From NCBI GenBank assembly GCA_030696455.1, contig JAUYSH010000040.1, positions 1 through 32,840 of the forward strand: a stretch of 32,840 nt of DNA, given 5' to 3'. The notes below the pieces were generated by a model, which was not told the origin of the DNA, did not search any database, and saw only the letters and a program-made list of their open reading frames with translations. This stretch comes from Elusimicrobiota bacterium. Lineage in GTDB: Bacteria > Elusimicrobiota > Elusimicrobia > UBA1565 > UBA9628. Both the position numbers and the translations under genes were made by a program. This document shows positions 4,237-29,000 of this stretch, one piece after another (the stretch's first letter is position 1; each line of letters opens with the position of its first letter).

Positions 4237-7200
4237 GTGAAGCGACCCCTCGCCTTCGCCCTCGCCTTCCTCATTGTCGCCCTGTCCCCGGGCGCGCCCG
4301 CCTACCAGGCGTTCGCGCAGACGGTGGGCCGGACCGGCACGGCGACGGGCTCCGCGGGCGACGCGGCGACCTCGGTCAACTCCGGCGTCGGCAGCGGCGG
4401 GATGTCCGCGCCGCTGTCGCTGCCCGTCCAGACGCTCGGCCTCAACGGGGCCTTGGCGCCGGCCGCCGTGCCGGCCCTGAACGCCGCGGCGGTCCCCTCC
4501 CTGGCGCCCTCGGTCGCCGCCGCCGGCCCCGTCGCCGCGCTCTCTCAAGCGCAGGCCCTGCGGCCCGCCGCCGCCGCGGCCGCGATCCCGGCGGCGGCCA
4601 AGCCTCTTGTCCCCGGCGCGCTTCAGCCCGCCGCTAAGACGGCGAACGCTCCGGGAGGCCTGTCGGCCGCCTCGAAGCAGATCGAATCCCTGTCCCAGAC
4701 CGCGAAGCCGGTGCTCGACGGCGTCAAGCAAGGCGACGCGACCGGAGCCCTCAACAGCGTCTATGAGAACTCGTCCCGGCGCGGCGAGCTCGGCGCCGTG
4801 CGGACCCCGTCGGGCTCCGCGGCCCTTCGCCAGGGGCTGAAGCGCTCGGCGCCCTCGGCCGAGAAGAAAGCCGCCGAGGAGGTTCCGGCGGCCCTGGCGC
4901 CCGTCGCCAAGCCCTCCGTTTGGCAGCGCATCAAATCGACCTTCGACCTCTCCGAGTTCAACAAGAGCGAGAAGTCCTACATCGCCGGCCAGGCCGTCTT
5001 CCTGCTCGCGATCTCGGTGTACCTCGCGTCCTTGCCCCTGCTCGTGAGCGCTTTGACCGGCGACGCGGCGATGACCGGCGTGGCGCGCATGGTCCACTAC
5101 TGGGTGTTCGGCGGCGCGTCCCTGTTCGCGGGGGCGGTCGTCGGCAAGACCCCGATGAAGCGCATCCTCGTCGGCGCCGCCGGCGGCCGGGCCATGCTGT
5201 TCGGCTCGATCGGCGTCCTGGCCCTGATCGGGGGCCTGCCCTGGGCCGCCTTCCTCGTCCTCGTCGGCGTCAACGCGGCGATCGTCGCCCACAACCACCT
5301 CGTCGACATCGACACCGGCGGCGCGGCCAAGATCTTCAAGGGGGCCGACCAGAAGAGCACCGACCGCAAGATCGAGAAGGCCGGCTACGTCTACGACTTC
5401 ATCTACTACGGCATGATGCTGATCGTGCCCGCGATGATCGGCCTGCCGATGGACTGGATCGACGCGCGCTTCGGCCCGGGCATCGGCGCCGGCGCGGGCT
5501 TCGCGGTGTTCGCGGCCCTGATGGGCGTCGTATCCTTCATATACGCCAAGCGCGTGGTCACCATCGGAGACATCGCCTCGGCCCCGTGGGCGGGCTTCAA
5601 GAACTACGTCGGACGCATCCTCGGCGCGTTCAAGACCTTCGGACGCATCCTCATCGACGTGCCGCGCCGCAACTGGGCGACGGCGAAGATCATCCTCCAG
5701 AACAAGGCCATCCTCGCGCGCTCCGCGATGGCGACGACGGAGAACTTCGTCGAGGACGCCCTCTTCGCGGTCGTCCTGCCCACCTTCGCCATCGACATCC
5801 TCAAGGTGGGCGCGTTCGGCAACGGCCTGCTTCTCTCCGCGATCACCGCCGGCGGCCTCGTGGCCTCGATGTTCCTGATGAAGCGCATCCAGGGCCTGCA
5901 GGCCAAGCACGGCACCTACAAGGTCCTGGCCGGCCTGACCGCGGTGGCGGCACTCGCCTTCGTGCCCTCGATCGGGCTGTGGCTCGTGCCCTCGCTGGCG
6001 CTCGCCATCCCCGCGGTGTTCATGATGAAGCTGATGCTGCAGCCGCTGCGCTCGCGCATGCGCGCCTTGCTTCAGGTCGAGATCAAGAACGATCCCAAGG
6101 CCGCGCCGTTCGCCGACGACATCTACAGCCTGATGACCTTCGTCGAGGTGATCGCGGCCGGCGCGGGCGGGCTTGCCTTCGCGTGGCTGTTCCACAACTC
6201 CATGCCCGGCTCGGCGCTCGCGCTGGCGCTCGGCGCGCTGGCGCCGATGAAGATCGTCACGGTCACCTTGTTCGCGCTGGGCTTCGTGTACCTCGGGGGC
6301 CTGCGCTGGGTCAAGCAGCAGCTCAGCAAGCCGACGCATACGGTCCACAAGTCGCCCGAGGGCAACGAGGCGAAGATGCTCGCCCAGCTCGCGGTCAGCC
6401 TGAAGGAAAACGGCCTGCCGGAGCACAAGTCGGCGACGGTCGCCGGCGCGGCGAGCGAGGACCTGCCCACGGTCGTCGTGCTCGCGCCCGCGTCGCGTCA
6501 CAAGATCGCGCTCGCCCGCGAGGGCGGACGCCAGGCCGAGGGGAACTTCCATCTCGTGCTCGACGCCTCCTGGCTGATCCAGGAGACCTATCCCGACGGG
6601 CGCACTGGGCTGCGCGTGAAAAAGGGCGTGGTCTTCGACGAAAACGGCCAGGCGACGGTCGTGGAGTATGAGGTTCCGCGCCGCGTGCGCTACTTCGCGA
6701 ACTACTTCACGCTCGGCGCCAACGACCGCGACGACGGGAACGTGTTCGAGACGAACCTTGACGTGCCTCAGTCGAACTCGCTTCAGCTCGAGAAGGTGGT
6801 CAACGACAAGCTGGGCACGCGCCTGATCCTGGCCGCCGGCGGCGTCGCGGTGCCCGCGACCTTGGCCCTGCTCATGCCGCTGCACCACCTCGCGGACCGG
6901 CCGATGGGCGCCCAGGGCACGGTGCAGGTGGCGGCGATGCCCGCGCCCGGATCCCGCGCGGCCGAGGTCTCCCGGCTCGTCGACGACTACCTGGCGGCGT
7001 TCCAGGGCGCGGAGCTCGTCGTGAAGCCCTCCGGCCCCCAATTCCACTCCGGCCGCGGGGTCAAGTTCTTCAAGAAGTCCGAGCGCGACGCGATCATCGC
7101 GCACGCGTTGGCGCTGGCCGTCGACGCGCAGATGACCGAGGACGGGGCGGTGCTCCTCGACGAGCGCGTCGACTCCGCTCCGCTCGACCGCGGCGGCCGC

Positions 7201-8991
7201 AAGATGGAGACCACGGGCCGCATCCTCGTCGCGCGCGCCCCGTGGGGCGGGGCGGCGACGACGGGCATGTTCGCCCGCGTCGGGCCGTGGGGCAAGCCCA
7301 CGACCGCCGAGGCGGCCGACCCGCGCGACAACGCGACCGTCGAGCCCATGGAGAAGCTCTTCGCCGAATGGAGGAAGGCGGGGCTCATCGACGAGCGCGG
7401 CGCGCGCGAGCTCGAGGCGCTGATGCGCGAGACGGGCGAGAACGCGCTCAAGGCGATCGCCGAGTACGAGAAGTCCTTCGGGCGCAAGGAGGGGGAGCCC
7501 TACCAGGCGCAGAGCGACATGATCGGGCTCGATGTGATGATCGAGAAGCGCGACGGGAAGCTGACGCCCGTGATCATCGAGGTCAACGATCACGACTCGG
7601 GCGGCCAGTACAACCTCGATCAGATGCACCCCGAGCGCTCCGGCGAGCACTCCCGCGAGTGGGTCGCGACGATGCTGCAGCGCGCGCGCCGCGACGCCCT
7701 CAAGGGCAAGCGGCTCGTGATCGTCGGGGCCGGCTACGAGGGCAAGAAGCCGATCTTCGAGCGCGCCCGCGAGCTCGGGGTCGACATCATCCTCATCGAC
7801 AGCGCCAAGAGTTGGGCCAACGACCCGCGCTACATCTCCGAGCTGATCCCGACCGACAACACCAAGCCGGCCGAGGCCCTGACCATCGCCCGCAAGAAGC
7901 TGCAGCGCTCTGTCCGCAAGAACGGCAAGCTCGACGGCATCACCACCTTCTGGGAGGACGACGTGGTCCTCACGGCGGACCTGGCCAAGTCCCTGGGGCT
8001 GCCGTACCACAGCCCCGACGCCGCGCGCACCGCGCGCAGCAAGTTCGAGACGCAGGCCGTCCTGGCCTTGAAGGGCGTGCCCGCCGCGCGCCAGCAGACG
8101 ATCGACAACCTGTCCACGGCCGCCGACGAGAAGGAGCGCGAGGCCATGGTCGCCAAGTTCCGCGAGTCCGCGTCCGAGGTCGGCTTCCCCGCCGTGATCA
8201 AGCCCGTGTCCGGCGCCGCCGCCATCGGCACCGAGAAGGTCTCCTCGCTCGAAGAGGCCGTCGGGGCCTACCGGCGCATCAGCGCGATCATCAACCCGAA
8301 GACGGACCCCATCTTCGCCAACAACTCCGACCTGCTCCTGATGCAGTATCTCGACGGGCACGAGTACGACGTGGACCTGGTCATGGTCGCGGGCAGGCCC
8401 GTGTTCCAGTCCGTGGCGGACAACAAGCCCACCCGCGAGCCGTCCTTCCTCGCCACCGGCTCGCGCCTGCCCAGCACGATGACCTCCCGGCAGCAGAAGG
8501 AGTCCGCGGATCAGGCCATCGCGTCCGCCCAGGCCCTGGGCCTGACGGACGGGGTCGTCCACATGGAGGGGAAGTACACCTCCGAGGGCGCCCGGCTCAT
8601 CGAGGGCAACGCGCGCATGGGCGGCACCTACGTCCACGACTGGGTCAAGACCGTCTGGGGCGTGGACCTCGCCGAAGAGGGTTTCATGGCGGCGGCGCGC
8701 ATCGGCGGGCGGCCTTTCAGGCCCGCGGCCCCGCTCGTCCACCTCGACGGCGACTTCGTCAACTCCGACAAGGCCGGCGTGATCAAGGTCCTCGAGCTGC
8801 CCGAGGAGGCCCGCCGCCTGCCCGGCTTCATCCGCTTCCGCATGGTCAAGAAGGCCGGCGACCGCATCACGACCGACGAGGGCGGCGGCTACACGCGCGT
8901 GGCGATGCTCGAGGTCGGCGGCAAGAACGCCGATGAGGCGAAGCGAAACCTCGAGGCGATCAAAGCCAAGATCCGCTTCGTCGTTGAATAG
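4237..8991 (+). CDS. MFS-like membrane protein fused to tandem ATP-grasp ligase
   Basis: The 1584-residue protein starts at GTG. Residues 1-28 form a signal-like segment (ending FAQ), followed by an Ala/Pro-rich linker to about 225. Residues 247-690 contain about 12 hydrophobic segments in an MFS-like arrangement. The rest resembles two ATP-grasp halves, as in carnosine synthase. Half one (about 745-1150) has K930 in a VVKPSG motif, an HSGRG loop, and E1115 and N1117 in IIEVND. Half two starts with a Rossmann-like strand (VIVGAG, about 1160) and has K1322 in AVIKPVSG, E1376 in the hinge, and E1456 and N1458 in IEGNARMGG. Both halves retain ATP and metal residues. ATP-grasp enzymes of this kind ligate amino acids or peptides. 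The fusion suggests a small peptide made and exported by one polypeptide. Whether the N-terminus is truly exported is unclear, since the ligase needs cytoplasmic ATP. Confidence 0.78.
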   Translation: MKRPLAFALAFLIVALSPGAPAYQAFAQTVGRTGTATGSAGDAATSVNSGVGSGGMSAPLSLPVQTLGLNGALAPAAVPALNAAAVPSLAPSVAAAGPVAALSQAQALRPAAAAAAIPAAAKPLVPGALQPAAKTANAPGGLSAASKQIESLSQTAKPVLDGVKQGDATGALNSVYENSSRRGELGAVRTPSGSAALRQGLKRSAPSAEKKAAEEVPAALAPVAKPSVWQRIKSTFDLSEFNKSEKSYIAGQAVFLLAISVYLASLPLLVSALTGDAAMTGVARMVHYWVFGGASLFAGAVVGKTPMKRILVGAAGGRAMLFGSIGVLALIGGLPWAAFLVLVGVNAAIVAHNHLVDIDTGGAAKIFKGADQKSTDRKIEKAGYVYDFIYYGMMLIVPAMIGLPMDWIDARFGPGIGAGAGFAVFAALMGVVSFIYAKRVVTIGDIASAPWAGFKNYVGRILGAFKTFGRILIDVPRRNWATAKIILQNKAILARSAMATTENFVEDALFAVVLPTFAIDILKVGAFGNGLLLSAITAGGLVASMFLMKRIQGLQAKHGTYKVLAGLTAVAALAFVPSIGLWLVPSLALAIPAVFMMKLMLQPLRSRMRALLQVEIKNDPKAAPFADDIYSLMTFVEVIAAGAGGLAFAWLFHNSMPGSALALALGALAPMKIVTVTLFALGFVYLGGLRWVKQQLSKPTHTVHKSPEGNEAKMLAQLAVSLKENGLPEHKSATVAGAASEDLPTVVVLAPASRHKIALAREGGRQAEGNFHLVLDASWLIQETYPDGRTGLRVKKGVVFDENGQATVVEYEVPRRVRYFANYFTLGANDRDDGNVFETNLDVPQSNSLQLEKVVNDKLGTRLILAAGGVAVPATLALLMPLHHLADRPMGAQGTVQVAAMPAPGSRAAEVSRLVDDYLAAFQGAELVVKPSGPQFHSGRGVKFFKKSERDAIIAHALALAVDAQMTEDGAVLLDERVDSAPLDRGGRKMETTGRILVARAPWGGAATTGMFARVGPWGKPTTAEAADPRDNATVEPMEKLFAEWRKAGLIDERGARELEALMRETGENALKAIAEYEKSFGRKEGEPYQAQSDMIGLDVMIEKRDGKLTPVIIEVNDHDSGGQYNLDQMHPERSGEHSREWVATMLQRARRDALKGKRLVIVGAGYEGKKPIFERARELGVDIILIDSAKSWANDPRYISELIPTDNTKPAEALTIARKKLQRSVRKNGKLDGITTFWEDDVVLTADLAKSLGLPYHSPDAARTARSKFETQAVLALKGVPAARQQTIDNLSTAADEKEREAMVAKFRESASEVGFPAVIKPVSGAAAIGTEKVSSLEEAVGAYRRISAIINPKTDPIFANNSDLLLMQYLDGHEYDVDLVMVAGRPVFQSVADNKPTREPSFLATGSRLPSTMTSRQQKESADQAIASAQALGLTDGVVHMEGKYTSEGARLIEGNARMGGTYVHDWVKTVWGVDLAEEGFMAAARIGGRPFRPAAPLVHLDGDFVNSDKAGVIKVLELPEEARRLPGFIRFRMVKKAGDRITTDEGGGYTRVAMLEVGGKNADEAKRNLEAIKAKIRFVVE

Positions 8992-9089: not shown

Positions 9090-10358
9090 ATGAACCGAGC
9101 CCTCGCCTCGTTGTTGTCGCTTCTGATCGTTACTCCCGCTTCCTCTCAGGTCATTTCCGTACGCTTACCCGCAGCGGGCGGCGCTCCAACGATCGTTCCC
9201 GCCACGCCCGCCCTCATCGGCGCGCCGTCGATCCCGACCTTGTCGCCTTTATCCTTGACCCCGGCCCTTCTCTCCCCGTCGATCGCCCTGACACCTATTA
9301 ATGCGCTCGTTCCCGCCGCGCTCAATCCGTTGCCGTCGCCGGTCTCAGCCGCGGCCCCCGCCGCGCTCCGCGCGGCAAAAACATTGTCCGGCACTCTCTC
9401 CGCGGCTGCGTCCGAAGGACGCAGCCAAGCTCCGGCCCTCAACGCCGCATTCGATGGCCTCAAAGCCGCGTCCACGCCCGACGCCGTTTCCGTTCCCGCC
9501 GCTCCCGCCCCCGATTCGTTCGTCCTCGAGGCCCGCCGCCGCTTCGCCGCCCTTCGCCGTTCCGAGACGACCGGCCAGGCGCGCCCCGAGGGCGCGATCC
9601 CCAGCGACGAGGACCTGTACGGCCGCATGGACCGACTCCCCTCCACGAACCCCGAGCGCGCGCGATTCATGATCGACCTCTTCAAGCTCGGCGGTGCCAC
9701 CGACGCCGACATCGTCCTCCAGGACGCCGGCCGCGGCCGCAACAACATCATCGTGACGAAGAAGGGCCGCACCGACCGCGTCATCGTCATCGGCGGCCAC
9801 TACGACAAGGTCAGCGTCGGCCTGGGCAAGATCGACAACGGCACGGGGGCCACGATGGTCGCCAACCTGTACCAGGCGATGAACGGCGTCGAGACCGACG
9901 CGACGCTCGTCTTCATCGCCTTCGCCCGCGAGGAGGAAGGCCTGTACGGCTCGCAGACCTACGTGCGCTCCTTGGACAAGACGAAGCGCGCGAAGATCGA
10001 CGCGATGATCAACCTCGACACGCTCGCCGTCGACGGCACATTCTCCTGGAAGAACAACTCCACGCGCGCGCTCCTCGACCGCATGGCGCAGGTCTCCCGC
10101 GAGAGCGGCCACGCGATGAAGGAGGCCTACCTCAACGGCGGCGACGCCGACTCCTCGACCTTCCGCGACGCGGGCATCCCCGCGGTGACGATGTACGGCG
10201 CGTCGCAGGACGTGATCTTCGACGTCATCCATAACGAGAACGACACGATGGCCGCGTTCAGCCTCGCGCACTACAAGAACGCGTACCTGCTCGTTCTCGA
10301 GGCGATCAAGTCGCTCGATCGCGCCCCTCTTGGCCCCGTCGGGCGCAGAGACATTTAG
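9090..10358 (+). CDS. exported M28-family zinc aminopeptidase
   Basis: The 422-residue product has a signal peptide (1-20, ending ASSQ), a low-complexity Ala/Pro/Ser linker to about residue 143, and a complete M28 catalytic domain. Expected zinc ligands and catalytic residues are visible in order: H237 in GGHYD, D249 in KIDNGTGA (bridging Asp), E281-E282 in AREEEGLYGS (general base and zinc ligand), D310 in NLDT, and H381 in IHNEND. M28 enzymes remove N-terminal amino acids or hydrolyse dipeptides, typically outside the cytoplasm. The -10 box is 6 nt from the ATG and there is no Shine-Dalgarno sequence, so the mRNA is probably leaderless. A 10-bp GAA-loop hairpin (9404-9426) lies in the linker coding region. 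The gene might supply or process peptides linked to the ligase upstream, but only the shared promoter motif suggests this. Confidence 0.88.
   Translation: MNRALASLLSLLIVTPASSQVISVRLPAAGGAPTIVPATPALIGAPSIPTLSPLSLTPALLSPSIALTPINALVPAALNPLPSPVSAAAPAALRAAKTLSGTLSAAASEGRSQAPALNAAFDGLKAASTPDAVSVPAAPAPDSFVLEARRRFAALRRSETTGQARPEGAIPSDEDLYGRMDRLPSTNPERARFMIDLFKLGGATDADIVLQDAGRGRNNIIVTKKGRTDRVIVIGGHYDKVSVGLGKIDNGTGATMVANLYQAMNGVETDATLVFIAFAREEEGLYGSQTYVRSLDKTKRAKIDAMINLDTLAVDGTFSWKNNSTRALLDRMAQVSRESGHAMKEAYLNGGDADSSTFRDAGIPAVTMYGASQDVIFDVIHNENDTMAAFSLAHYKNAYLLVLEAIKSLDRAPLGPVGRRDI
9404..9426. repeat. 10-bp perfect GAA-loop hairpin inside the M28 gene
   Basis: The perfect stems are 9404-9413 and 9417-9426 with loop GAA. 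The hairpin lies in the low-complexity linker (about residues 105-113), not in the catalytic domain. See the matching elements at 13035 and 18259. Confidence 0.7.
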
Positions 10359-10520: not shown

Positions 10521-12773
10521 ATGAAAGTTCTGTCCATCTTTTGCTGTTCCGTTATCTTGAGCGGGTCTTCCGCGCCGGCTTTCGCGCAGGTGGTGCGCGG
10601 CGGCATCGGCGGCGCGGGCGTTCATGCGCCCGCGGCCGGAGCCCTTACCGGCTCGGCTTCCGCGATCAACCCCGCCCTCAACGGCGGGGTTTCTTCTATA
10701 CAGGGAAGCCTGGCGCCGACCATGGTCGCGCCCTCCGCGGCACTGACGCCCGCCCTGAGCGCCCCGATCGCCCTCGCCCCCGCGAAGGCCGTCGTCGCGG
10801 CGTCGCCCCTGGCGGCCGTGAAGGCCGAGCCCGTCAACGCCCTCGCTTCGGCCCGCACCTTGGCCGCCGCGATCGGCGACGAGAACCTGCCCAAGGGCCC
10901 GGACCAGGCCAAGGAGGCCGCCGACCAGGCTTTCGACGGTGCCTTGAACGGCGGCACCGTCGAAACTCCTTCAGATGCGCCCTTCGCCCACAACGGCGCG
11001 CCGCTCGCCCAGCTCTACCCGCGCGTGGTGTTCGTGCAGGACGTCTTCTCCGGCCCCGCGTCGGAGAAGACCGTCGAGTACGTCAACAAGCTCGTCGACG
11101 CCGGCGTGCACGTGGTGTTCCTGACCTGGCGCCCGCACCGCGGCGCGGACTCGGCCGACTCGGTGCTCATGACGCGCGTCAAGCAGTCGCGCAACAACCC
11201 GGTCATCGTCGTCTCCTACAACGGCGGCAAGGTCTCCCTGCACGGCCGCGCGGCCAACCCCAAGCCGCTCATCGAGAGCGTCGGCGCGTTCCCCGTCGAG
11301 GCCCTCGCCAAGATCAAGAAGCTCGCCAACGTCGTCGAGGCCGTCCCGACCGACGCCGAGGCCTTCTCCGTCACCGTCAAGCTCGTCGAGGGAGTCAAGT
11401 CGCCGTCCCTCAACGCCCAGATCAACGCCCTCAACCGCAAGTTCAAGGCCGCCGGCCTCGACTACAAGGCGGAGGCGCACCCGAACGTCCCCGGCGCGGC
11501 GATCATCCATTCGATGCCCCTGCGTTTTTCCTTGGCGCGGGTCATGCAGGCTCTCGAGACGCAGTTCGCCGGCGAGAACCTGTCCAAGTCGCCCGAGAAG
11601 TTCCTGATCCTGTCGGACTCCGTGAAGTCGCCCCGCTTCTCGACCGCCTTCCCTAAGAACTCCGAGATCCAGGTGGTCCGCGGCGGCGCGGCGATGGAGA
11701 ACGTGCTCGGCGCCGTCCTCGGCGACCGCGCGCTCGGCAGCGTCTCCCTGAAGCTCGGCAAGCTGCGCCAGTACGTCGAGTACTGGGAGCCCTCGCACAG
11801 CCGCGCCCGGAACTACGAGCCCGACGCGGTGGGCGGCAGCGGCGGCGGCGGCTCGATCCGGCGCGCGGGCGGCGATCGCGAGACGAACAAGATGTTCGCG
11901 ATGTACGTCGGCACGATCATGTTCCGCATGATGGCCCAGCTCTACGACGACATCTTCCGCGGCCAGCATCAGCTCGCCAAGCTCACCGTCCTCCAGGCGC
12001 AGCTGCGCTCGATGTGGTACGCGCCCCTCAAGCACGGCGTCTACGTGAACAAGGGCCTGGCCAAGATCATGAGCACCCCGGCCTGGAAGGCGCAGAGCAA
12101 GGGCTACCTCGAGTACGCGAACTCGTACCTTACGAATTTCTATTTCCGAGAATTCGGCGACTACACCCGCGCCGCCCGCAACGTGCAGGAGAACTACGTC
12201 GGCCTCTCGACCGACCGCAAGAGCCTGATCACCCTCGAGTTCGTCTCGGCGGCGACGGGCAAGCTGTACAAGATCCACACCCGCATCCCGCGCGTCATGC
12301 GCCTCGAGATGGCGCAGGGCCTGACGCTCACCGCCTACGCCTACCGCACCGGCAAGGAGACGCCGGACGACGGCGAGGAGTTCCTGGCCCGCGTGCTCGC
12401 CATGGCGATGCTCAAGGGCCACGCCCGCAAGGGGCCCGACGGCAAGTGGCACCACGGCTCGCCCGAGGGCAAGGTCATCGAGAGCCTCAACGTCCAGCTC
12501 GAGTACCGCACCAGCGCGCGCCTGCACATCTTCAAGGCCGAGGACTTCCTGCGCCTCGAGGAGGGCCAGACCGTCAACGGCCCGATCGTCCAGGAGATCA
12601 TCTCCGCCATCGAGCGCGAGGAGGCCGACGCCGAGTACCAGGCCTACTACGCCGAGCAGGAGCAGGAAGCCACGAAGGACGACCTGAAAAAGAATAAGAA
12701 ACCCGCGGCGAAGAAGACGGCCGTGGCGAAGGCGAAGCCGGCGGCGAAGAAGCCCGCCGTGAAGGGGAAGTAA
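10521..12773 (+). CDS. exported HAD-like protein with Lys/Ala-rich tail
   Basis: I choose the ATG at 10521 because it gives a proper signal peptide (1-23, ending AFAQ) and lies 8 nt after GAAGAGAG; upstream starts would bury the signal. The product is 750 residues. After an Ala-rich linker (to about 165) comes a HAD-like Rossmann segment. VVFVQD places D174 at motif I, but the usual second Asp is replaced, and FLTWRP places T202 at motif II. The HAD fold may therefore be catalytically inactive. A Gly/Ser linker at about 438-445 leads to a roughly 270-residue helical domain that I do not recognise. The last 30 residues are repeats of Lys, Ala and Pro, as in histone H1-like tails, suggesting binding to DNA or another polyanion. 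The gene ends 1 nt before the next start, so the two are translationally coupled. Function unknown. Confidence 0.75.
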   Translation: MKVLSIFCCSVILSGSSAPAFAQVVRGGIGGAGVHAPAAGALTGSASAINPALNGGVSSIQGSLAPTMVAPSAALTPALSAPIALAPAKAVVAASPLAAVKAEPVNALASARTLAAAIGDENLPKGPDQAKEAADQAFDGALNGGTVETPSDAPFAHNGAPLAQLYPRVVFVQDVFSGPASEKTVEYVNKLVDAGVHVVFLTWRPHRGADSADSVLMTRVKQSRNNPVIVVSYNGGKVSLHGRAANPKPLIESVGAFPVEALAKIKKLANVVEAVPTDAEAFSVTVKLVEGVKSPSLNAQINALNRKFKAAGLDYKAEAHPNVPGAAIIHSMPLRFSLARVMQALETQFAGENLSKSPEKFLILSDSVKSPRFSTAFPKNSEIQVVRGGAAMENVLGAVLGDRALGSVSLKLGKLRQYVEYWEPSHSRARNYEPDAVGGSGGGGSIRRAGGDRETNKMFAMYVGTIMFRMMAQLYDDIFRGQHQLAKLTVLQAQLRSMWYAPLKHGVYVNKGLAKIMSTPAWKAQSKGYLEYANSYLTNFYFREFGDYTRAARNVQENYVGLSTDRKSLITLEFVSAATGKLYKIHTRIPRVMRLEMAQGLTLTAYAYRTGKETPDDGEEFLARVLAMAMLKGHARKGPDGKWHHGSPEGKVIESLNVQLEYRTSARLHIFKAEDFLRLEEGQTVNGPIVQEIISAIEREEADAEYQAYYAEQEQEATKDDLKKNKKPAAKKTAVAKAKPAAKKPAVKGK
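10931..10965. repeat. 13-bp perfect hairpin inside the HAD-like gene
   Basis: The stems are 10931-10943 and 10953-10965 with a 9-nt loop, in the low-complexity linker at about residues 137-149. A perfect 13-bp stem is unlikely to be maintained by codon choice alone in a neutral linker. Confidence 0.6.
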
Positions 12774-12774
12774 C

Positions 12775-15348
12775 ATGAAGCTCGCGGCCCGTTTGCTCCG
12801 GGTCGTCCTGGCGGCGGCCCTGCTGGCTCCGTCATCGGCGTTCGCGCAGGTGCGCGCCTCCGTCCCGGGCGCCTCGGCGGGGGCTCCGATTGTGGTCCCG
12901 TCGTTCGGCGCGGGTCTCTCCGCTCCGTCCGTGACCGCTCCGCCCTTGAGCGCGCCGTCCTTGTCCTTGCCGCCGGTGCTCTCCGCCCCGGCGCTTGTCC
13001 CGTCCGCCGTCTCGCCCGTGCCGTCCGCCCTGCTCGATTCGCCGAAGGCGAATCGGCCGGTCGCGGCCGCCGCCGCAAAGGCGGCGATGCCCGCCGGCGT
13101 CGTGCCCGCGGCCCAGAAGCCCGTGGACCCCCAGTCCCCGGCGAAGCTGGACGCGCTGACCGCCCTGCGCGATATGCCCGCGACGCTCGAGTCCGCCCCC
13201 GCCGCCGCGGGGCGCTTCGACGGCGCGAAGGTCCGCCCCGCGCTCGAGGAGCCCGTCGAGCCGGAGACCGTCACGAGCGAGATCTCCGACCAGAACGTCC
13301 AGGACGACCTCGCCCTGTGGTTCACGCGCAAGCAGAAGGCCGACATCAAGAAGGACCAGGTCTACACGCTCGTGCGGCCGGTCCTCGGCAACGGCTCGCG
13401 CCGCTACTGGGAGAAGTTCGAGGAGAAGGCGAGCCTCGTCATCAAGGTCGGCGGCCAGGGCATGTTCATGTCCCGCGTGACCTACGCCCGCACGGTGCCG
13501 ATCAACCGCATGACGCTCAAGGATTTCGAGGGCGTCTACACCAAGTCGATGCTCCGCGGCAAGACCATCTACAAGCTCCGCGCCAAGCTCATCGCCGAGC
13601 TCAACGAGCGCAACGACCGCACGATGCGCGGCCAGTCCGGCGTCGTGACCCAGCTCTCCGAGGTCCGCGTCGTGCGCGTGCTGCCCTTCGGCCAGGCGCG
13701 CCTGCTGCCCGAGAACAAGGACGAGGACATTTACGCGCCTGTGGCGCGTAAATCCTATACCCTGCCCGCGGCGATGCAGGGCCTCAACCACATGTCCCCC
13801 AAGGTCGTCTTCCTCGACATGCGCCTCTTCCCGGACGGCGTCCCGTACCCGCTCCTCGAGGACATGACCAAGCTGATGAAGGCCGGCATGTACTTCGCGC
13901 TCCTCTCCGACAAGGCCAACGACGCCCCCGGCTCCGTCGAGGAGCAGCTCACGCGCGGCCTCACGATGAAGCAGAAGGACTCCATCTCCCGCTACAAGAT
14001 GGTCGTCCTGTCCGACGACGGCAACGCGCTGCAGTCCTACGACGGAGCCTTCGCGCGCTACCTGCCGTCCCAGCGCTTCGCCAACCAGGAGGTTGAGCTG
14101 ATGCGCTTCGCGGCCAAGCAGCTCGGCCTCGCCGGCGTGATCGCGTCGCACGGCACGGAGTTCATCGCTTCCATCAAGAAGGGGGGGGACGCCGCCGCGG
14201 CGCGGACCGCCCTGCTCGCTCAGATGAAGACCTTGGGCCTGCCGGTCGGGTCCTGGCAGTCGGTCGTCGCCGAGCGCGACGGCAAGACCTCCGTCGTCGT
14301 CCGCCCTCACCATCTGGCCAGCGCCATCCCGCATCTGCTCGAGTCTCTGCGCGAGCAGGAAGGCCTGTACGTCAACCCGAGCGACATCATGACGATCTCC
14401 CGGGACGAGGCCCTCCTCGCGGCCACCAAGGGCTCCTTCCAGCCGTCCAAGCTCCTGGAGGAGCAGGGCGCGGACCTGGCCGACGCGTCCTTGGCCGCGG
14501 TCCTCGGGCCGTACCGCGAGAATCGCCCCGGCGACCTCGCGGCCTCGGCCTCCAAGATCACGAGCTTCATCTACAACCCCGACCGCGTCGGCGGCGGCTT
14601 CAACGGCGGCAGCATCTACATGATGATGGGCCACGTGATGCACGCGGCGTTCAACTGGGCGGTGTGGAAGTACCGCAACGAGGGAGTGTTCCCCTCGGCC
14701 GAAGACACCGTCGCGGCCGCCGAGAGGATCTGGCTGCATGAGGAGTCCGAGCGCACGGGCAAGAACATCGACCGCCCGGGTGAGAACCTGGCCGGCTTCC
14801 ACGAGGTCATGGTGGGGCGCATGCGCACGATGCACGCGGTGACCGCGGATATCCTGAAGGTCTACCCGATCGCCATCGGCACCGAGCTCTCGAACATGCT
14901 CGTGTTCGACAACTACAAGAAGGGCGTGCCCGACAACCGCGACATCCTGCGCCTGATCTTCGACTTCGTCGTGGCGCGCGAGATGCCCGACGGCACGCTC
15001 GAGGTCGCGGTCGTCGACTTCAAGACCGGCCAGACACCGACCTTGCAGAACCTCGAGAAGGACACCCAGGTCCAGCTCTACGACCTGGCGATCCGCAAGA
15101 TGTGGCCGAAGATCTCGGTCCCGTACGGCGCGCTGGGAGAGCGCCGCCCGGTGTCGGACTACAAGATCCGCTTCATCTACCCGTCGGCGGGCTACCAGCC
15201 CCTGCTCAACGAGTGGAGCCGCATCAAGTTCGAGCGCTTCCTGCGCAACGTGATGAACCGCATCCGCAAGCACAACACCCCGCCGGCCCCGAAGCCCGCG
15301 GCGAAGACGAAGCGCAAGCCCAAGGCGAAGGCCGCGACGAAGAAGTAA
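12775..15348 (+). CDS. exported HAD-like / PD-(D/E)XK nuclease protein
   Basis: The 857-residue product has a signal peptide (1-25, ending AFAQ), a Pro/Ala linker to about 160, an unrecognised alpha/beta domain (about 165-325) and a HAD-like segment (D348 in VVFLDMR, S378 in FALLSD). The C-terminal domain (about 590-835) matches RecB/Cas4-type PD-(D/E)XK nucleases. It has S591-x-S593 with Y600-N-P602, G619 and H623 in MGHVMH, D730, then D748-F-K750-T-G (the D-x-K core) and Q765-x(3)-Y769. The order and spacing are those of this superfamily, so nuclease activity is likely. The tail is Lys/Pro/Ala-rich, as in the upstream gene. A signal peptide on a RecB-like nuclease is unusual and points to extracytoplasmic DNA, or to a signal that is not used. 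The gene starts 1 nt after the previous stop and is followed by a clear terminator. Confidence 0.75.
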   Translation: MKLAARLLRVVLAAALLAPSSAFAQVRASVPGASAGAPIVVPSFGAGLSAPSVTAPPLSAPSLSLPPVLSAPALVPSAVSPVPSALLDSPKANRPVAAAAAKAAMPAGVVPAAQKPVDPQSPAKLDALTALRDMPATLESAPAAAGRFDGAKVRPALEEPVEPETVTSEISDQNVQDDLALWFTRKQKADIKKDQVYTLVRPVLGNGSRRYWEKFEEKASLVIKVGGQGMFMSRVTYARTVPINRMTLKDFEGVYTKSMLRGKTIYKLRAKLIAELNERNDRTMRGQSGVVTQLSEVRVVRVLPFGQARLLPENKDEDIYAPVARKSYTLPAAMQGLNHMSPKVVFLDMRLFPDGVPYPLLEDMTKLMKAGMYFALLSDKANDAPGSVEEQLTRGLTMKQKDSISRYKMVVLSDDGNALQSYDGAFARYLPSQRFANQEVELMRFAAKQLGLAGVIASHGTEFIASIKKGGDAAAARTALLAQMKTLGLPVGSWQSVVAERDGKTSVVVRPHHLASAIPHLLESLREQEGLYVNPSDIMTISRDEALLAATKGSFQPSKLLEEQGADLADASLAAVLGPYRENRPGDLAASASKITSFIYNPDRVGGGFNGGSIYMMMGHVMHAAFNWAVWKYRNEGVFPSAEDTVAAAERIWLHEESERTGKNIDRPGENLAGFHEVMVGRMRTMHAVTADILKVYPIAIGTELSNMLVFDNYKKGVPDNRDILRLIFDFVVAREMPDGTLEVAVVDFKTGQTPTLQNLEKDTQVQLYDLAIRKMWPKISVPYGALGERRPVSDYKIRFIYPSAGYQPLLNEWSRIKFERFLRNVMNRIRKHNTPPAPKPAAKTKRKPKAKAATKK
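13035..13055. repeat. 9-bp perfect GAA-loop hairpin inside the nuclease gene
   Basis: The stems are 13035-13043 and 13047-13055 with loop GAA, encoding DSPKANR in the linker. It is homologous in sequence and reading frame to the hairpin at 18259-18277. One stem pair is T-A here and G-C there. Confidence 0.7.
13729..13753. repeat. 11-bp perfect hairpin inside the nuclease gene
   Basis: The stems are 13729-13739 and 13743-13753 with loop TGT. The stretch is locally AT-richer than its surroundings and lies in the linker before the HAD-like domain (about residues 319-327). Confidence 0.6.
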
Positions 15349-15398: not shown

Positions 15399-15440
15399 AT
15401 TTCGGGTTCGTCCTGGACCGAGTCCTCGCTTCATTTTGAC

Positions 15441-15460
15441 GACTGTTTCCGGAAACAGTC
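15441..15460. repeat. 20-bp perfect palindrome, copy 1
   Basis: GACTGTTTCCGGAAACAGTC is a perfect palindrome between the nuclease terminator and the stress operon. Related copies occur at 25804-25823 (one mismatch in the dyad) and 29748-29766. It could be an operator, a protein-bound chromosomal site or a repeat element. Confidence 0.7.
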
Positions 15461-15555
15461 CCTCCGCTTACGGTCCCGTCAATTTTGATTTACCCGCCCG
15501 CCATCGCCGCGCGGCCTTTGCTCATGCCATCCTTTCCGGCAGCGAGGGAGGTCCC

Positions 15556-17601: not shown

Positions 17602-20010
17602 ATGAAGAACACGCGCCGCGTCCTCGCCGTCTTCCTCGCTTTCCTGACCCTCGCGTTCGCCCCTGGTCTTGTCTCCTATGAGGCCGCCGCGCAGGTCATC
17701 AACGGAGCGGGTTCCGCTCGCGCGGGTGGAGTCCCGGTCGTCCCGACGTACGGCGCGAACGGCGCCGGCATCGCTCCTCTCTCGCCCGCGGCGTCTCTCG
17801 CGCCGGGCCTGGTCGGCGGCCTGTCCGCCCCCGCCTTCAATGCTCCCGCCCCGACGCTCTCTCCCGTTTTCGCTCCCGCCGCCCTGACGCCCGGCGCGGC
17901 CCGCGCCGTCGCCGCGGCCATCCCGTCCTTGCCCGCCTCCGCCGTCGCCGCCCAGGCGTTGGGCCCCTCTCTTACGGCGAATGGAAGGGGCACTTCCTCG
18001 CCTTATGGCTCGGTCGCCGCTCAATCGGAAGCCGCCGCGGCTCCGGCCGCCGACGCGAAGGGTCAGCTCGCGCTCGCGGGCGAGCGCCTCTCCGCCGCCG
18101 CCGACGGCGACAAGACCGGCCTCCTCGATTCGTTCTTCACCGGCGCGCGCGCCATCTACGGCCGCCTGACCGGCGGCAATACTGCCTCCGGCTCGATGGT
18201 GGCGCAGCCTTCCGCATCCGCGGTCGTCAACGAGGTTCCCGCGGCCAAGTCCGTCGTCGAGTCGCCGAAGGCGACTCAGCCGACGCCGGTCGCGCTCGTC
18301 GGCACCGGCCTGCAGCCCGGCGACAAGTTCCTCACCGCCCCGGCCGCCGAGGAGAAGCCGCAGGTTCCCGCGCCCGCCCCCGAGGCCGTCGATCCCGCCG
18401 TCGGCGCCAAGGCCATCAAGTGGATGTACATCCAAGACGCGATCAGCATGTCGGTGTTCATCATGACCTCGATCGCCTACCCGATGATCGTGATCCCCGC
18501 CGTCGGCACCGTGACCTTCGGCGTGCTGATGGCCCTCGGGCCCCTGGCCGCGATCGCGCTCGGACCGCTCTCCGGCATGATCGCGACCCGCTTCGCCCCG
18601 CGCGAGGGCCTGGCCATCCTGTCCGGCCTGCGCGCCTTGCTGACCGTCGCCCTGCCCATCATGGCCTTGACCGGCATGATCAGTTTCTGGCCGCTGCTGC
18701 TCGCCTCGATCGCCAACGGCTGGCAGTTCTCGCTGCTGATGACGAGCCGCAGCGCCTACACGCGCCGCTTCGCGATCACCGACCCCAAGCAGACCCGCAG
18801 CTGGCTGCACATCGGCAACCTGACCACGATCGGCTTCTCGATCTACTTCCTGCTCCAGGTCATGCTCGGCTCGATCGGGCAGATCGGCGGGCTCATCGAC
18901 GCGATGAACCCGATGACCCCTTTCTGGATTTCGGCCGCCGTCAACGTCGGCCTCGTCTTCCTCAACTACTGGAAGATCCCCAAGATCGCCAACATCGTGT
19001 CCAACGCCGCCGGCGCCGTGAAGGCCGCGGCCGAGCCGTTCACGAAGAAGGCCGCCGCTTTTGGGAAAAAGTTCTGGAAAGAAATCGCGCTGTTCTCGGG
19101 CACCATCGCCGTGTACGCCTGGGGTCTTCCCTTCGTCCTGCCGGTGATCGGCACGGGCATCGGCTCGCCGCTGTGGATGGCGGCCGCCCTGCTGTTCTGG
19201 ATCTCCCGCACCGAGACCTTCAAGAAGGTGATGTCGACGCCGAAGATCCGCAACGCTCTGCTCCTGTCCGCCCTGGCGGCCGGCCTGATCTATCCCTTCC
19301 AGAACCTCGCGATGCCGCTGATCGCCGCCTCGCTGGGCGCCAAGGCCCTGATCTTCGGGCAGTTGCTCGGCGCGTTCTTCTTCGGCCAGCTGCTGTCCAA
19401 CGCGAGCATGGCCCGCCTGCCCGAGGTCAAGATCCCGTTCACGAGCAAAACGATCGCCGCCGAGCGCCTCCTGCAGGCCGGCGTGCTGACCCTGGCCGCG
19501 ATCTGGGCCGGGGTGCGCCTGTTCCCGGGCAGCCTGCTCGCCGCCGCCGCCGCGGTCGCGATCGGCGCGGCGATCATCGCCGTGACCTCGCGCCTGACCC
19601 ACCGCGGCTGGATCAAGTTCTACGGCATCGGCCTCATGGCCGCCGTCGGCGTCGCCCTGTCATGGGGATTCTTTCCGGGAATTTTCGCTTCCGTGATGCT
19701 GCTCGGCCTGTTCGTCGGCCCGTTCGTCTCGGCGATCACCTCCTACATCAGCGGCAACTCCGACCCCAAGATGGTCTCGCAGACCTTCGGCGTGAGCAGC
19801 TCGCTGTTCAACGCGCTGACCTCTTTCGGCTACGGGCTGATGGCGGCGAGCACGAAGGCGTACGGCGACCCGGCGTTCCCGAGCGCCCTGACGCCGATCA
19901 TCGCGGTCTACGTCGCCGCGGCGATCCTGTTCTTCTTCGCACCTAGATGGCTGCCCGGCCTGCCCGAGAAGAGCCTGCGCTCTCCCGAGCCTAAAAAGCC
20001 CGCCGCGTAA
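17602..20010 (+). CDS. MFS-like transporter with long N-terminal extension
   Basis: The 802-residue product has a signal-like N-terminus (1-31, ending SYEAAAQ, like the ATP-grasp and M50-S8 proteins) and an Ala/Pro-rich segment to about 270. A membrane domain with roughly 12 hydrophobic segments follows (about 275-790). Charged loops such as RFAPREG after the second segment and the paired six-helix arrangement suit the major facilitator fold. No signature identifies a substrate. It resembles the membrane domains of the ATP-grasp and M48 fusions and may be a stand-alone relative. The -10 lies 8 nt before the ATG, so the mRNA is probably leaderless. The linker carries a GAA-loop hairpin at 18259-18277. 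Confidence 0.72.
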   Translation: MKNTRRVLAVFLAFLTLAFAPGLVSYEAAAQVINGAGSARAGGVPVVPTYGANGAGIAPLSPAASLAPGLVGGLSAPAFNAPAPTLSPVFAPAALTPGAARAVAAAIPSLPASAVAAQALGPSLTANGRGTSSPYGSVAAQSEAAAAPAADAKGQLALAGERLSAAADGDKTGLLDSFFTGARAIYGRLTGGNTASGSMVAQPSASAVVNEVPAAKSVVESPKATQPTPVALVGTGLQPGDKFLTAPAAEEKPQVPAPAPEAVDPAVGAKAIKWMYIQDAISMSVFIMTSIAYPMIVIPAVGTVTFGVLMALGPLAAIALGPLSGMIATRFAPREGLAILSGLRALLTVALPIMALTGMISFWPLLLASIANGWQFSLLMTSRSAYTRRFAITDPKQTRSWLHIGNLTTIGFSIYFLLQVMLGSIGQIGGLIDAMNPMTPFWISAAVNVGLVFLNYWKIPKIANIVSNAAGAVKAAAEPFTKKAAAFGKKFWKEIALFSGTIAVYAWGLPFVLPVIGTGIGSPLWMAAALLFWISRTETFKKVMSTPKIRNALLLSALAAGLIYPFQNLAMPLIAASLGAKALIFGQLLGAFFFGQLLSNASMARLPEVKIPFTSKTIAAERLLQAGVLTLAAIWAGVRLFPGSLLAAAAAVAIGAAIIAVTSRLTHRGWIKFYGIGLMAAVGVALSWGFFPGIFASVMLLGLFVGPFVSAITSYISGNSDPKMVSQTFGVSSSLFNALTSFGYGLMAASTKAYGDPAFPSALTPIIAVYVAAAILFFFAPRWLPGLPEKSLRSPEPKKPAA
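18259..18277. repeat. 8-bp GAA-loop hairpin inside the MFS-like gene
   Basis: The stems are 18259-18266 and 18270-18277 with loop GAA, encoding ESPKAT in the linker. Compared with 13035-13055 the stem differs by a compensatory T-A to G-C change (18261 with 18275). Confidence 0.68.
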
Positions 20011-20856: not shown

Positions 20857-23800
20857 ATGAAACGAATCATCGCGGCGTCCGTCTCCCTTTCGCTCATCCT
20901 CGTCTCGGCGCCGCTTCCCGCGTGGTCCCAGGTCTCCTCCGCGATGACGGGCTCGGCCTCGGGCGTCTCGGGCTCGGCCGCCGGCGCGGCGCGCAACGGC
21001 GCGATCCCGCAGCTCGCGATGCCCGCCCTGAGCTTGACGGCTCCCGCGCTGTCCGGCGCGCTGTCCGCGCCGATGGCCAACAGCCCGGTCCCGGGCGCCA
21101 ACCGGCGCGCCCCGATTTCCGCCGCGTCTCCGGTCGAGCAGCGTCAGGCGCTCGCGATCGCCGTGCCGCTCGCCGCGGAAGCCCCGGCGCCCCTCGCGGC
21201 GGCCACTCCGCAGATTCCCGCCTCCAAATCCGCAGCCTTGAGCCCGGTCACCGCCGATGCGAATAGCCTCGCCGCCGCCCGCCTCGACGTCGCGGAGGCC
21301 GCGGGAGCGATCCAGAGGGGCCCGACGTCCAGCTCGCGCTGGGCCGCCGCGCGCATGATGGACCGCCTGCTCGGCGTCGAGGAAGCCGGCGAGCGCGAGC
21401 CGGTCGTCGAAGGCCTGCCGCCGGCCGGAATTCTGTCCGCGGGGTTGACGCCCGCCTCCGCGTCCGAGCGCTCGGGTCTGGCCTCGGTGCCGTCGCCGCA
21501 GGCTCCGGAGAACGCTCCCGGCCGGTCCAAGCTCGGCGGCGCGCTCAAGACGGTCGCGACCTTCGCCGCCGGCGCCGGCCTGACCATCGGCCTGCAGCTG
21601 GCCGCCGTGGCTCTGTTCCCCGCGATCTTCGGCGTCGTGCCCGTCGCGGCGGTCTGGGCGGTCAGCTCGGGCCTCCTGCTCTTCCCGGTCGCGCTGTACG
21701 CGCGCTACCGCCTCGCCAAACGCGACTCCCCGCGCCTGAACAAGGTCAAGCTGATCCTGGACCTCTCGCTCGGCGCCTTCACCGGCGCCGCCTTGATCGC
21801 CGTCCCGAGCCTCGGCCTCGTCCTCTCGACCGCCGGCGTGCTCACGGCCGCCGCGCCCCTGCTGGCCGTGGCCGGCGGGCGCTGGTTCGGCAGCAACTCT
21901 CTCGCCGACACGGTGCTGACGTGGGCCGTGCTCGGCTTCACGCCGGCCGTGGTCGGGGTCGCCTCCGCGGCGGGGCTCATCGGGCTCGCGCCCATCGTCG
22001 GGCTGATGATGCTGCCCGTGATGACGACGATCGCCTTCTTTCTCGGACGTCTGATCCACTCCGCCGAGACGGGGGCGCCTTTCTCCGTGCCCGGCTCGAT
22101 GCAGAAGATCCGCTTTCCGTCCTTCCAGTGGGTGATGATCGGCGTGGTGTTCGCCCTATTGACGGGCTACTCCGCCGTCTACACGAACGTCGCGTTCGGC
22201 GTGTGGACCTTGCTCGGCGGGCGCTCGGGCAACGCGCTCTCGACCTTCCGCGTGAACTCCGTCTGGACCTTCCTTAAGAAGATCCTGAGCTACATCACGT
22301 TCAACCGCCTCTACTTCGCGCTGTTCGCGTACACCGCCTTCACCGGCTTCGCGAGCCCGCTGACCTTCCTCGTCATCGCCTTCGCGGGCGAGCGGGCCTC
22401 GGTCTGGACGGACAAGCTGCTTGGCCGCATCCTGCCGAAGGCCGCTCCCGCTCCGTCGGCGCGGACGGCGCCGGTGGAAGACCCGAGCAGGCTCGACGAC
22501 GCCCCGCCGAAGTGGCCGGCGTTCCATTATTGGGCCAAGTCGTTCCTGATGCTCGGCTCGATGGCCGGCATCGGCGTGCTTCTCTCCTTCACCGTGTTCG
22601 GCGTCACGAGCCTGCTGACCAACCTCGGCATCGCCGCCGTCCTGGCGTTCGTGCCCTTCTTTTTCGCCAAGAAGATCATCAAGCTCGTCATGAAGGCCAA
22701 GCCCACGACCAAGGAGCAGGATCCCGAGTTCTTCGAGATCATGGAGGGCCTGCGCGACCGGATCAACGCCGGCCGCCGCGCGAAGGGGAAGAAGGAGATC
22801 CCGATGCCCGAGATGGTCATCGACCCGATGGACGCGCCGAACGCCTACGCGACGGGCCGCAGCCCGTTCGCCGCGATGGTGGGCGTGACGCGGGGCATCA
22901 AGGCGATGACGCTCGAGCCCGAGATCGTCCGCGACGGCGTGGTGCGCCTGATCGCCTCGACCGACGCGGGCAGCAAGGAGTTCAAGGTCTTCCGCCGGGC
23001 CATCGCGGGCTCGGTCACCGGCGTGCCCGCCGATGCTAAGCCGTCCGAGGTCGCGTCCTCGGTCCTCAAGGCGGACCGCTCCGAGCTCAAAGCGCTCGGC
23101 GTGCGCATGCTGCGCGGCGTTCTGTCCCACGAATTCTCTCATGTCATGGACCGGCACATGCTGTCGGGCTCCATCGGCGGCGCGATCGCCTCCGGCGTCG
23201 CCTTCGCGTCCTACGGCGTGATGTGGGCCGTCGGCCACGCGAAAGTCATGGTGCAGAAGGCGCTCGGCCTGGCGCCGAAGGAGGCTGCGGAGGATGAGCG
23301 CGCGGCGGGCGTCGAGGGGCCGGGCTCCAAGACGCATGCCGTCGATCCGATCTCGACCGGCGTGATCCTCAAGTCGCTGCCGGCGCTCCTGCGGCTGTTC
23401 GCCGCGCTGTGGGCGCCGGTGGTGCTCCAGGTCCTGCAGATGGCGTCCTCGCGCAACAACGAGGGCATGGCCGACGAGGACGGCGCGCTGCTCAGCGAGG
23501 ATCCGGAATCGCTCGCGCTCGCGCTGGGCCTGCTGACGACGTGGCGGCCGGGGGCGGGGTTCCGTCTGCCGGGCGCGGCGGTCCCGCGCGCGGCGTCCCT
23601 GCAGCACATCATGATCGTCAACCCGCTCGAGCAGCTCGACAACGCGGGCGCGCTGCCCCGGACGTCGGCCTCCGGCGGGCCGACGCGCGCCGACGACCTG
23701 ATCTTCGAGCTGTTCATCACCCATCCCAACACGGGCGTGCGCGTCCGCAAGCTGTGGGACATGTCCGAAGCCATGAGGGGGACTCGTCCCAAGCCGCGTC

Positions 23801-26077: not shown

Positions 26078-29000
26078 ATGAAGCGCTTTCGCTCCGTAAT
26101 CGCCCTCGCTCTCTCGCTCGCCCTCGTCGTCGTTTCCCCGGGCTCGAGCGCTTATCACGCCGCCGCGCAGACCGTCGGCGCCTCCGTCGGTTCGTCGGCC
26201 TCGGCGGGCGTCTCCGGCGTTTCCGGCGCGAGCCTCGGCCGCGCGTCCGGCGTCTCCTCGATCCCGATGATGTCTCCGTCGGCCCTGACTCTCTCGCCGG
26301 TTCTGTCCGCTCCCTCGATCGTCCCGTCCGCGATGCCCAACGCCGCCGTCGTTTCCGCCGCGCCTGTCGCCGCGAAGACCGCGGCCGCGCCCGTCGCGCT
26401 GAAAGCGCTGACGCCCATCTCCGCAAAGGCGGCGACCGAGCGGTTACGCGAGGGAGTGTCCCTTCCGCACGCCGTTAGAAAGGGACCCGCCGTCTCCTCG
26501 CTGCAGACCGTCGTGTCCGGCGTCGATTCGAAGTCCGCGGAGACGCAGGCCGCCGAGGCCGCCCTCCAGTTCGACGGCGCCTTCGCGAAGAAGAAGGATG
26601 ATTCCAGCAAGGGCATGCCCGATCAGGACACGGACGAGAACGGCAACCCCTCCCGCGACGGCGGCACCGACGAGCTCGGCAACCCGCGCCGCACCGGCGG
26701 CGAGGGCGGGCCCGACGACACCTCCGATCCCGACTACGGCGGACGCGGCGGCAACGACGGGCTCTTCGGCGCGCTGCGCCACGGCCGCCTGAACGCGTTC
26801 GCGGCCGGAGAGAAGGCGAGCGTCTCGCTGCGCGCCGCGAAGAAGGACAGCGGCAAGGGCATGCCCGACTCGGGCGATTCCTACGACGGCACGGGACGCC
26901 CCACGGAGAGAGGCGGGGACATCGACGAGCTCGGCAACCCGCGCCGCACCGGCGGCGAGGGCGGGCCCGACGACCGCTCCGACCCCGACTTCGGCGGCGA
27001 CCGCGGCGGCAACAGCGGGCTTTTCGGCTTGTTCGGCGTCGGCCTGCTCGGCGGCGCCGCGGCGACCGTCGCGGGCCTGTCCCTGGGCTCGCTCGCGATG
27101 TTCCCCATGATCATCCTGTCGCTCGTGCTCCACGAGATCGGCCACGCGCGCATGGCCGACAAGCTCGGCGACCCGACGGCCCGCCTGCAGAACCGCGCCT
27201 CCTTCAATCCCCTGCATTGGAAGACGCACATCGACCCGGTGTGGACCTTGCTCGTCCCCGCGGCGACCTTCCTGTTCGCCGGCTTCATCTTCGGCGGCGC
27301 CCGGCCCGTGCCGGTCGAGCCGCGCTACTTCAAGAATCCGGTCAAGGGCATGGCGCTCGTCGCCCTCGCGGGCCCCGCGGTCAACATGGGCTTGGCCGCC
27401 GCCGGCGCGCTGGCCGTGACCGGCGCCGTGGCCGCGGGCCTCGGCGCGGGCGTCATCGCGACCTTGGGCATGTTCGTGTTCCTGAACGTCCTGCTCGCGG
27501 TTTTCAACATGATCCCGCTGCCGCCGCTCGACGGCAGCCACATCCTCAAGTCCTTCCTCCCTTATCAGGCGCGCAACGCCATCGACGGCGTCATGGAGCG
27601 CCTGGGGCCGATGGGCGTGCTCCTGCCGATCCTGCTGGTGTTCATGGTCGCGGGCGGGGCGATCGTGGGCGCCTCCGCGTTCGTCGCCAAGCTGCTGATC
27701 GGCGGCGTCATGGCCGTGACCGGCGTGCAGACCGCGAGCGCGTTCCTGCCCGCCTTGGCGGCTCTTGGCCTGGCGGTCGGCCAGATCGGCGCGAGCCAGT
27801 CCGCGAGCCGCGCCGCGGCGCAGCAGGCCCCGGCCGGCCCCTCCGTGCCCGGCGCGGCGTCGGGCGGCGCGAACGCCCCCGTCGACCTCATCGTGATGTT
27901 CGGCGAGAAGCGGACCCGCCTCCATGACGCGCACATCACGAACGTGGACGTGAACCTGCCTTCCGGCGTCGAGCAGTACACCCGCCTTCAGCAGGCGATG
28001 CTGGCCCAGCTCGAGACCGCCGGCCTCGACGGGTCCGCCCTCGAGCCTTATAAGGCGACCCCGCTCGCCACGTACGCGCGCATCAACGCCGCGACGATCC
28101 GCGTCGACGGCTCCTCGGCCGCGCAGTTCACGCGGGAGATGGCGGAGCGCGGCTTTTCCGTCTACCCGAACACCGAGCGCAAGATCATCCGCCCCGTTCC
28201 CGTTTCTCCCGAGGACATGGACCCCGGGGCGCGCAGCGCCGTCACGATGGACGAGAACCTCCGGATCGTGAAGGCCGACCTCGTCCAGGCCGAGGCGGAG
28301 AAGATGTGGGGCAAGCCCGTCCTCGGCTTCTGGTCCGGCCTGTGGGCCAAGGTCTTCAAGTCCGAGCCGCCCCAGCCCCGGATCGGCGTCATCGATTCCG
28401 GCGCGGACGTCTCGCACCCCTTGCTGCGGCGCGTCAAGGAGGTCAAGAATATGACCTCCGGAGAGAACGTCGATGACATCGGCCACGGCTCGTGGGTGCA
28501 CTCCACCGTCCTGCACATGGCGCCGTGGTCGCGAGCCACGACGCACTACAAGACCTTCCTGAACGGCGGCGCGACCCTCGACGACATCCTCAAGTCCCTG
28601 ACCCAGGCCGGCAACGACGGCAACCTCGTGATCTCCAACTCCTGGGGCTCCGATGACGGCGACCCGAAGAGCCCGGACTCCCTGCTCGTCAAGAAGTTGG
28701 CCGCCGAAGGCCGCATCATGGTCTTCGCCGCCGGCAACGCCGGCTCGGGCAAGAACACGATCGGCTCCCCCGCGATCGTGACCTACAAGGACGCGGCGAC
28801 CGGCGCGATCCGCGTCGTCTCCGTGGCCGCCGCCGGCCGCGACAAGAAGATCGCCTATTTCTCCTCGCGCGGCCCCGGCTCGCCCACGACCGCGCGCGAT
28901 CCGAACTACAAAGACCACCGCCCCGATCTGACGGCCGTCGGCTATAACATCGAGGGCGCCTGGCCCGCGGCGCTCAACGAGGCCGACCGCGTGGACGGGG

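Follow-up and report, generated by a model that had tools for sequence, protein, structure and literature searches.

A predicted RecB/Cas4-type nuclease and its catalytically degenerate paralogue, both with export-like leaders and basic tails, in Elusimicrobiota

RecB/Cas4-type nucleases are known from inside the cell, as enzymes of repair, CRISPR and defence. AddAB, AdnAB and RecBCD carry an SF1 helicase in the same protein, and the paired subunits of RecBCD include a degenerate partner; Cas4 holds an Fe-S cluster with four cysteines. The pair of genes described here, P1 and P2, recalls the paired arrangement of RecBCD and lies on a contig of an Elusimicrobiota bacterium (genome of 4.0 Mb in 147 contigs), which was analysed over its complete length of 32,840 nucleotides (the window; Table 1). 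P2 resembles the nuclease domains of AdnA, AddB and RecB in fold, in an H-E-D-DxK-QxxxY active site and in matching PF12705, but differs from them by the absence of the Fe-S cysteine motif and by the presence of a predicted signal peptide, a pseudo-HAD fusion and a basic tail. Unlike AddAB, AdnAB and RecBCD, neither P1 nor P2 has a helicase domain detectable with Pfam, and the models of the two proteins comprise HAD and nuclease parts, to which that of P2 adds a small domain at the N-terminus. Literature searches for secreted RecB or Cas4 nucleases found nothing on point.

The P1 stop codon (12771-12773) and the P2 ATG (12775) are separated by 1 nt, the spacing already given by a prior reading of the DNA made from sequence and open reading frames (hereafter the sequence-only reading). 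A ribosome-binding-like stretch, GGGGAAG, precedes the P2 ATG and overlaps the 3' end of P1. Candidate starts for P1 are ATG 10521, ATG 10515 and GTG 10503; the exact start is uncertain, and the predicted signal peptide is kept with each. Searches of the window for Rfam RNAs and tRNAs returned none; no promoter of the sigma-70 type was found, and the count of terminator-like sequences barely exceeded chance. Phage and plasmid collections contained no match to P2, leaving a mobile-element reading of the pair unsupported. Downstream of P2, a small open reading frame (15436-15951) opens with a signal-like segment and contains repeated motifs of the PGLTPP type.

Table 1. Features of the P1-P2 pair and of its neighbours, in window coordinates
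Feature	Position	Strand	Content or basis
MFS-like membrane part + ATP-grasp/L-amino-acid-ligase part, same leader	4237..8991	+	Pfam, synteny
M28 peptidase, same leader	9090..10358	+	Pfam, synteny
P1, 750 aa	10521..12773	+	predicted signal peptide, linker, pseudo-HAD-IIB, predicted dead PD-(D/E)XK domain, basic tail
P1 predicted signal peptide, to APAFA/Q	10521..10586	+	by eye and home-made score
P1 Ala/Pro/Ser-rich linker	10587..10994	+	
P1 HAD-IIB domain, residues 162-404; motif I D174-x-F, not D-x-D	11004..11732	+	VIA-align
P1 predicted dead PD-(D/E)XK domain, residues 405-704	11733..12632	+	fold comparison, profile alignment with P2
P1 Lys/Ala/Pro tail, last 30 residues	12681..12770	+	
P2, 857 aa	12775..15348	+	predicted signal peptide, linker, probable ASCH-like domain, pseudo-HAD-IIB, predicted nuclease with intact active site, basic tail
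P2 predicted signal peptide, to SSAFA/Q	12775..12846	+	home-made score, homologue conservation
P2 Ala/Pro/Ser-rich linker	12847..13269	+	
P2 probable ASCH-like domain, residues 180-302	13312..13680	+	Foldseek; placed by size and strand order
P2 HAD-IIB domain, residues 339-581; D348 kept	13789..14517	+	VIA-align
P2 PD-(D/E)XK nuclease domain, residues 583-837	14521..15285	+	Pfam PF12705, fold comparison
P2 catalytic codons D748 and K750	15016-15018 and 15022-15024	+	
P2 Lys/Ala/Pro tail	15277..15345	+	
Polytopic MFS-like membrane protein, same leader	17602..20010	+	hydrophobic segments, synteny; no Pfam match
M48 peptidase + MFS, same leader, very large fusion	20857..25731	+	Pfam, synteny
M50 peptidase + subtilase, same leader, very large fusion	26078..29245	+	Pfam, synteny

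P2 matches PF12705 (PDDEXK_1) at E 3.8e-6, with 27.5 bits against a curated cut-off of 22, and 16 of 19 P2 homologues do so at a threshold of E 0.1. Residues H623, E704, D730, D748, K750, Q765 and Y769, among them the D-x-K and Q-x3-Y motifs, are invariant in all 19 homologues. When the AlphaFold model of P2 (pLDDT 82, built from 19 sequences) was compared with the PDB, 211 residues aligned with AdnA (9np6_A) at Z 16.8 and an rmsd of 3.1, and ACE1 (9iac_B; Z 14.2), AddB (Z 13.9) and Dna2 (Z 12.4) were also matched. PDB sequence searches with the single proteins and with both profiles yielded no credible match. The PD-(D/E)XK core with His, D-x-K and Q-x(3)-Y that the sequence-only reading had assigned to P2 is thus borne out by Pfam and by the predicted fold. 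On sequence and predicted structure, P2 is placed in the RecB-like PD-(D/E)XK nuclease superfamily, but in neither AddAB nor Cas4. It shares a stand-alone nuclease fold with Cas4 and with the Argonaute-associated, Cas4-family ACE1, but differs from both in its length of about 850 aa, its HAD and ASCH-like parts and its probable export. It contains no cysteine and so lacks both the cluster of Cas4 and the C-x2-C-x5-C Fe-S motif. The genome encodes five further PDDEXK_1 proteins, and four of these carry that motif.

P1 is homologous to P2. The profiles of P1 and P2 homologues align over 467 columns (probability 99.5, E 6.9e-23), with D-F-K-T-G of P2 set against A-Y-R-T-G of P1; in G-H-V-M-H, the second His is paired with a Phe. 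In the AlphaFold model of P1 (pLDDT 81), the C-terminal half is nuclease-like, with Z 11.9 to AdnA (9np6_A) and 11.7 to ACE1 (9iab_B). By profile and model, P1 is a P2 paralogue whose nuclease domain has lost its catalytic residues, making the two a predicted live/dead pair. The sole Pfam match of P1, Peptidase_C41 (E 0.036), falls in the signal and linker and was rejected as a product of composition.

HAD-IIB folds were recognized in both proteins at Z of about 12-15.5, with Z 15.5 to 3niw and 4bnd for P1 and Z 14.6 to 4bnd_A for P2 (VIA-align, AlphaFold models). HAD-IIB (Cof-type) phosphatases share this fold and have D-x-D as motif I; in P1 and P2 the Asp nucleophile is kept, but the second Asp is missing from 17/17 P1 homologues and from 13 of 19 P2 homologues, being present in the other six. 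It is missing from the P2 of the window itself. Because of this loss, phosphatase activity of the HAD domains is unlikely. The sequence-only reading had noted degenerate HAD-like segments in both proteins, which agrees with the HAD-IIB folds and broken motifs found here; its description of P1 as a HAD-like protein is correct for that domain but incomplete, as P1 is also the inactivated nuclease paralogue. For P2, Foldseek further returned YqfB (9kyf_A; E 7.8e-4, TMt 0.70) and the ASCH structure 3s9x (E 0.02). The Foldseek table is without domain coordinates, and the YqfB likeness most likely concerns the N-terminal part of P2. Pfam gave no ASCH match in P2 itself; one homologue (L044) has a C-terminal ASCH match at E 9e-4, just below the cut-off. 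An ASCH-like domain in P2, a part not named by the sequence-only reading, is probable.

Both proteins begin with a signal-like sequence ending in AFA before Q, followed by ∼120-140 Ala/Pro/Ser-rich residues, and this N-terminus recurs in homologues whose N-terminus is readable. Signal peptides were scored by a simple home-made rule, not by SignalP, and the signal-like starts agree with the two signal peptides proposed by the sequence-only reading. The Lys/Ala/Pro tails that it described are present as well. At least nine Lys or Arg residues occupy the last 30 positions in 18 of 19 P1 and 14 of 20 P2 homologues. A strict tail criterion selected one of 677 proteins in a same-genus genome and one of 353 in a sample of the present genome, P2 in each case; the 353-protein sample did not include P1. 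Such tails are almost unique to the pair in the proteome. Their likeness to histone H1-like and HC2 proteins is one of Lys/Ala/Pro composition only, and the HC2 profile matched 2 of 17 P1 homologues, with a best E of 0.09.

Cysteine is nearly excluded from the pair, with a total of three cysteines after residue 30 in 39 P1 and P2 homologues. The class of proteins bearing this leader was surveyed in 0.61 Mb sampled from the present genome and in 1.2 Mb of a same-genus genome, G010. In the former, leader-bearing proteins contain 0.2-0.6 Cys per 1000 residues versus about 8 in others (Mann-Whitney P 8e-9). In the G010 sample, the less reliable of the two as its assembly seems frameshifted, the corresponding values are 3.0 and 8.2, and 9 of 16 leader-bearing proteins are Cys-free; the weaker contrast was put down, without proof, to frameshifts and loose scoring. 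A within-family control is provided by Lon, homologues of which contain 0-1 Cys with the leader versus 3-8 in ordinary Lon. Leader-bearing homologues of the polyphosphate kinase PPK2 contain none, and the single distant leaderless match, which reads through stop codons, contains three. Exclusion of cysteine has been described for exported proteins of Gram-positive bacteria in a passage of PMC8425097 that cites Daniels et al. 2010. The conserved leaders, the near-total absence of cysteine and the missing Fe-S motif together lend indirect support to export of P1 and P2.

Relatives of P2 were found in 25 of 38 near genomes (E 1e-10). Across the phylum, 295 genomes were sampled; 25 have a relative, and these 25 belong to the same class. 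The distribution of P1 is nearly equal. P1 and P2 are adjacent wherever the contig stretch examined includes both, and such pairs recur in just one class of the phylum. In the one genome that apparently has P1 only (G005), P1 lies near a contig end; P2 was not found in some same-genus genomes (e.g., G002, G007, and G012). In family f2 (L044, L045, L046, L048, and L049), the P1 gene has roughly double the length, and its single product contains two P1-like units. The order of the surrounding island is kept in the genus: MFS+ATP-grasp, M28, P1, P2, MFS-like, M48+MFS, and M50+subtilase. The ATP-grasp ligase fusion behind a leader (4237-8991) is odd for an exported protein. A digestive role of the island is the simplest reading.

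The same leader was also found on further enzymes elsewhere in the genome. Export-like leaders and no cysteines are exhibited by a Lon protease (L085:2858-5629, minus strand, G000:C132; TIGR00763 over cut-off), by a Clp-type AAA+ ATPase (L085:1-2262, minus strand, G000:C132) and by a PPK2 (L200:10788-12047, plus strand, G000:C11; TIGR03709 over cut-off); an ordinary Lon is encoded as well (G000:C2). Walker B is retained among the Lon homologues, most of which also have the catalytic Ser motif. The first Walker B of the leader-bearing Clp protein reads FIDKIH, a departure from the usual FIDE. Leader-bearing, Cys-free PPK2 homologues occur in several families of the order. The leader is carried too by a haem peroxidase of animal type (L199:4444-8397, plus strand, G000:C9), in which a weak caleosin-like match was noted. 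Since Lon and Clp need ATP, the destination of the leader may not be ordinary periplasm. Either the leader leads somewhere other than an ATP-free periplasm or ATP is present there; a hypothesis is that PPK2 makes it from polyphosphate.

The reading that we favor, with moderate confidence, is that of an exported live/dead nuclease heteromer with a nutritional role. P1 and P2 would be cotranslated, exported by Sec and cleaved after AFA, and P2 would act as a metal-dependent RecB/Cas4-type nuclease in the periplasm or at the cell surface. P1 would be an obligate partner that binds the substrate of P2 or gates access to its active site, in much the way that RecC serves RecB, and both pseudo-HAD domains would serve as structural or interface modules. 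The Lys-rich tails may retain nucleic acid or another polyanion, although a basic low-complexity tail does not prove DNA binding. Alongside the M28, M48, M50, and S8 peptidases of the island, likewise exported on this reading, the pair would most likely digest macromolecules for nutrition. A cytoplasmic or cytoplasm-facing pair, with the N terminus as a membrane anchor or unused signal and a function in DNA repair or defence like that of AddAB or Cas4, would suit the intracellular nature of the nearest folds (AdnA, AddB, ACE1, and Dna2) and the ATP dependence of other leader-bearing proteins. We nevertheless judge it rather improbable, as cysteine is excluded, within the families compared, from the leader-bearing copies alone, the Fe-S motif is lost, neither protein has a helicase domain, and neighbouring genes encode peptidases that share the leader.

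Other readings assign the pair a different task. Delivery onto or into prey or host cells, where the nuclease would degrade their nucleic acid and Lon, Clp, ATP-grasp, and the kinase would use the victim's ATP, is consistent with a leader class in which proteases and a nuclease stand beside ATP-dependent enzymes, and ATP-users with intact Walker motifs are sensible only where ATP exists. The leader nonetheless resembles an ordinary Sec signal, no immunity-type gene was noticed beside the pair, and the number of homologues and a gene order kept over long range point to housekeeping, leaving delivery an unlikely explanation. Processing of incoming DNA in natural transformation, or trimming of extracellular DNA in biofilms, would be compatible with an exported DNA-acting enzyme with basic tails and fits all of the sequence evidence, but no competence gene was recognized among the domains found in the window, and we hold this for quite improbable. 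The substrate of P2 might instead be RNA or modified nucleic acid, with the ASCH-like domain, a member of the PUA superfamily, recognizing modified nucleosides. The fold matches to YqfB and 3s9x and the ASCH match in L044 point in this direction, and the EVE-HNH enzymes outlined in PMC7897488 offer a precedent for EVE/PUA domains in modification-dependent restriction. The ASCH assignment, however, derives from fold comparison and one sub-threshold HMM match; this specificity, which could be combined with export, seems to us doubtful.

A wider proposal, to which we attach a low probability, is that these Elusimicrobiota possess a second, Cys-free set of cytosol-type enzymes outside the cytoplasm, comprising Lon, Clp, ATP-grasp, the nuclease pair and peptidases, each behind a leader of one kind, signal peptide plus linker, for which leader-bearing PPK2 could make ATP from polyphosphate. 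The pair would then belong to the tools of a digestive compartment, extracytoplasmic or delivered, that is supplied with ATP. Activity of exported Lon, Clp, and PPK2, if present, would open to test the rule that restricts ATP-driven proteolysis to the cytoplasm. The within-family contrast in cysteine content offers an easy screen for further cytosolic enzymes relocated outside the cell. For this family, an exported, Fe-S-free RecB/Cas4-type nuclease that has basic tails and is paired with an inactive paralogue would be new in both setting and architecture.
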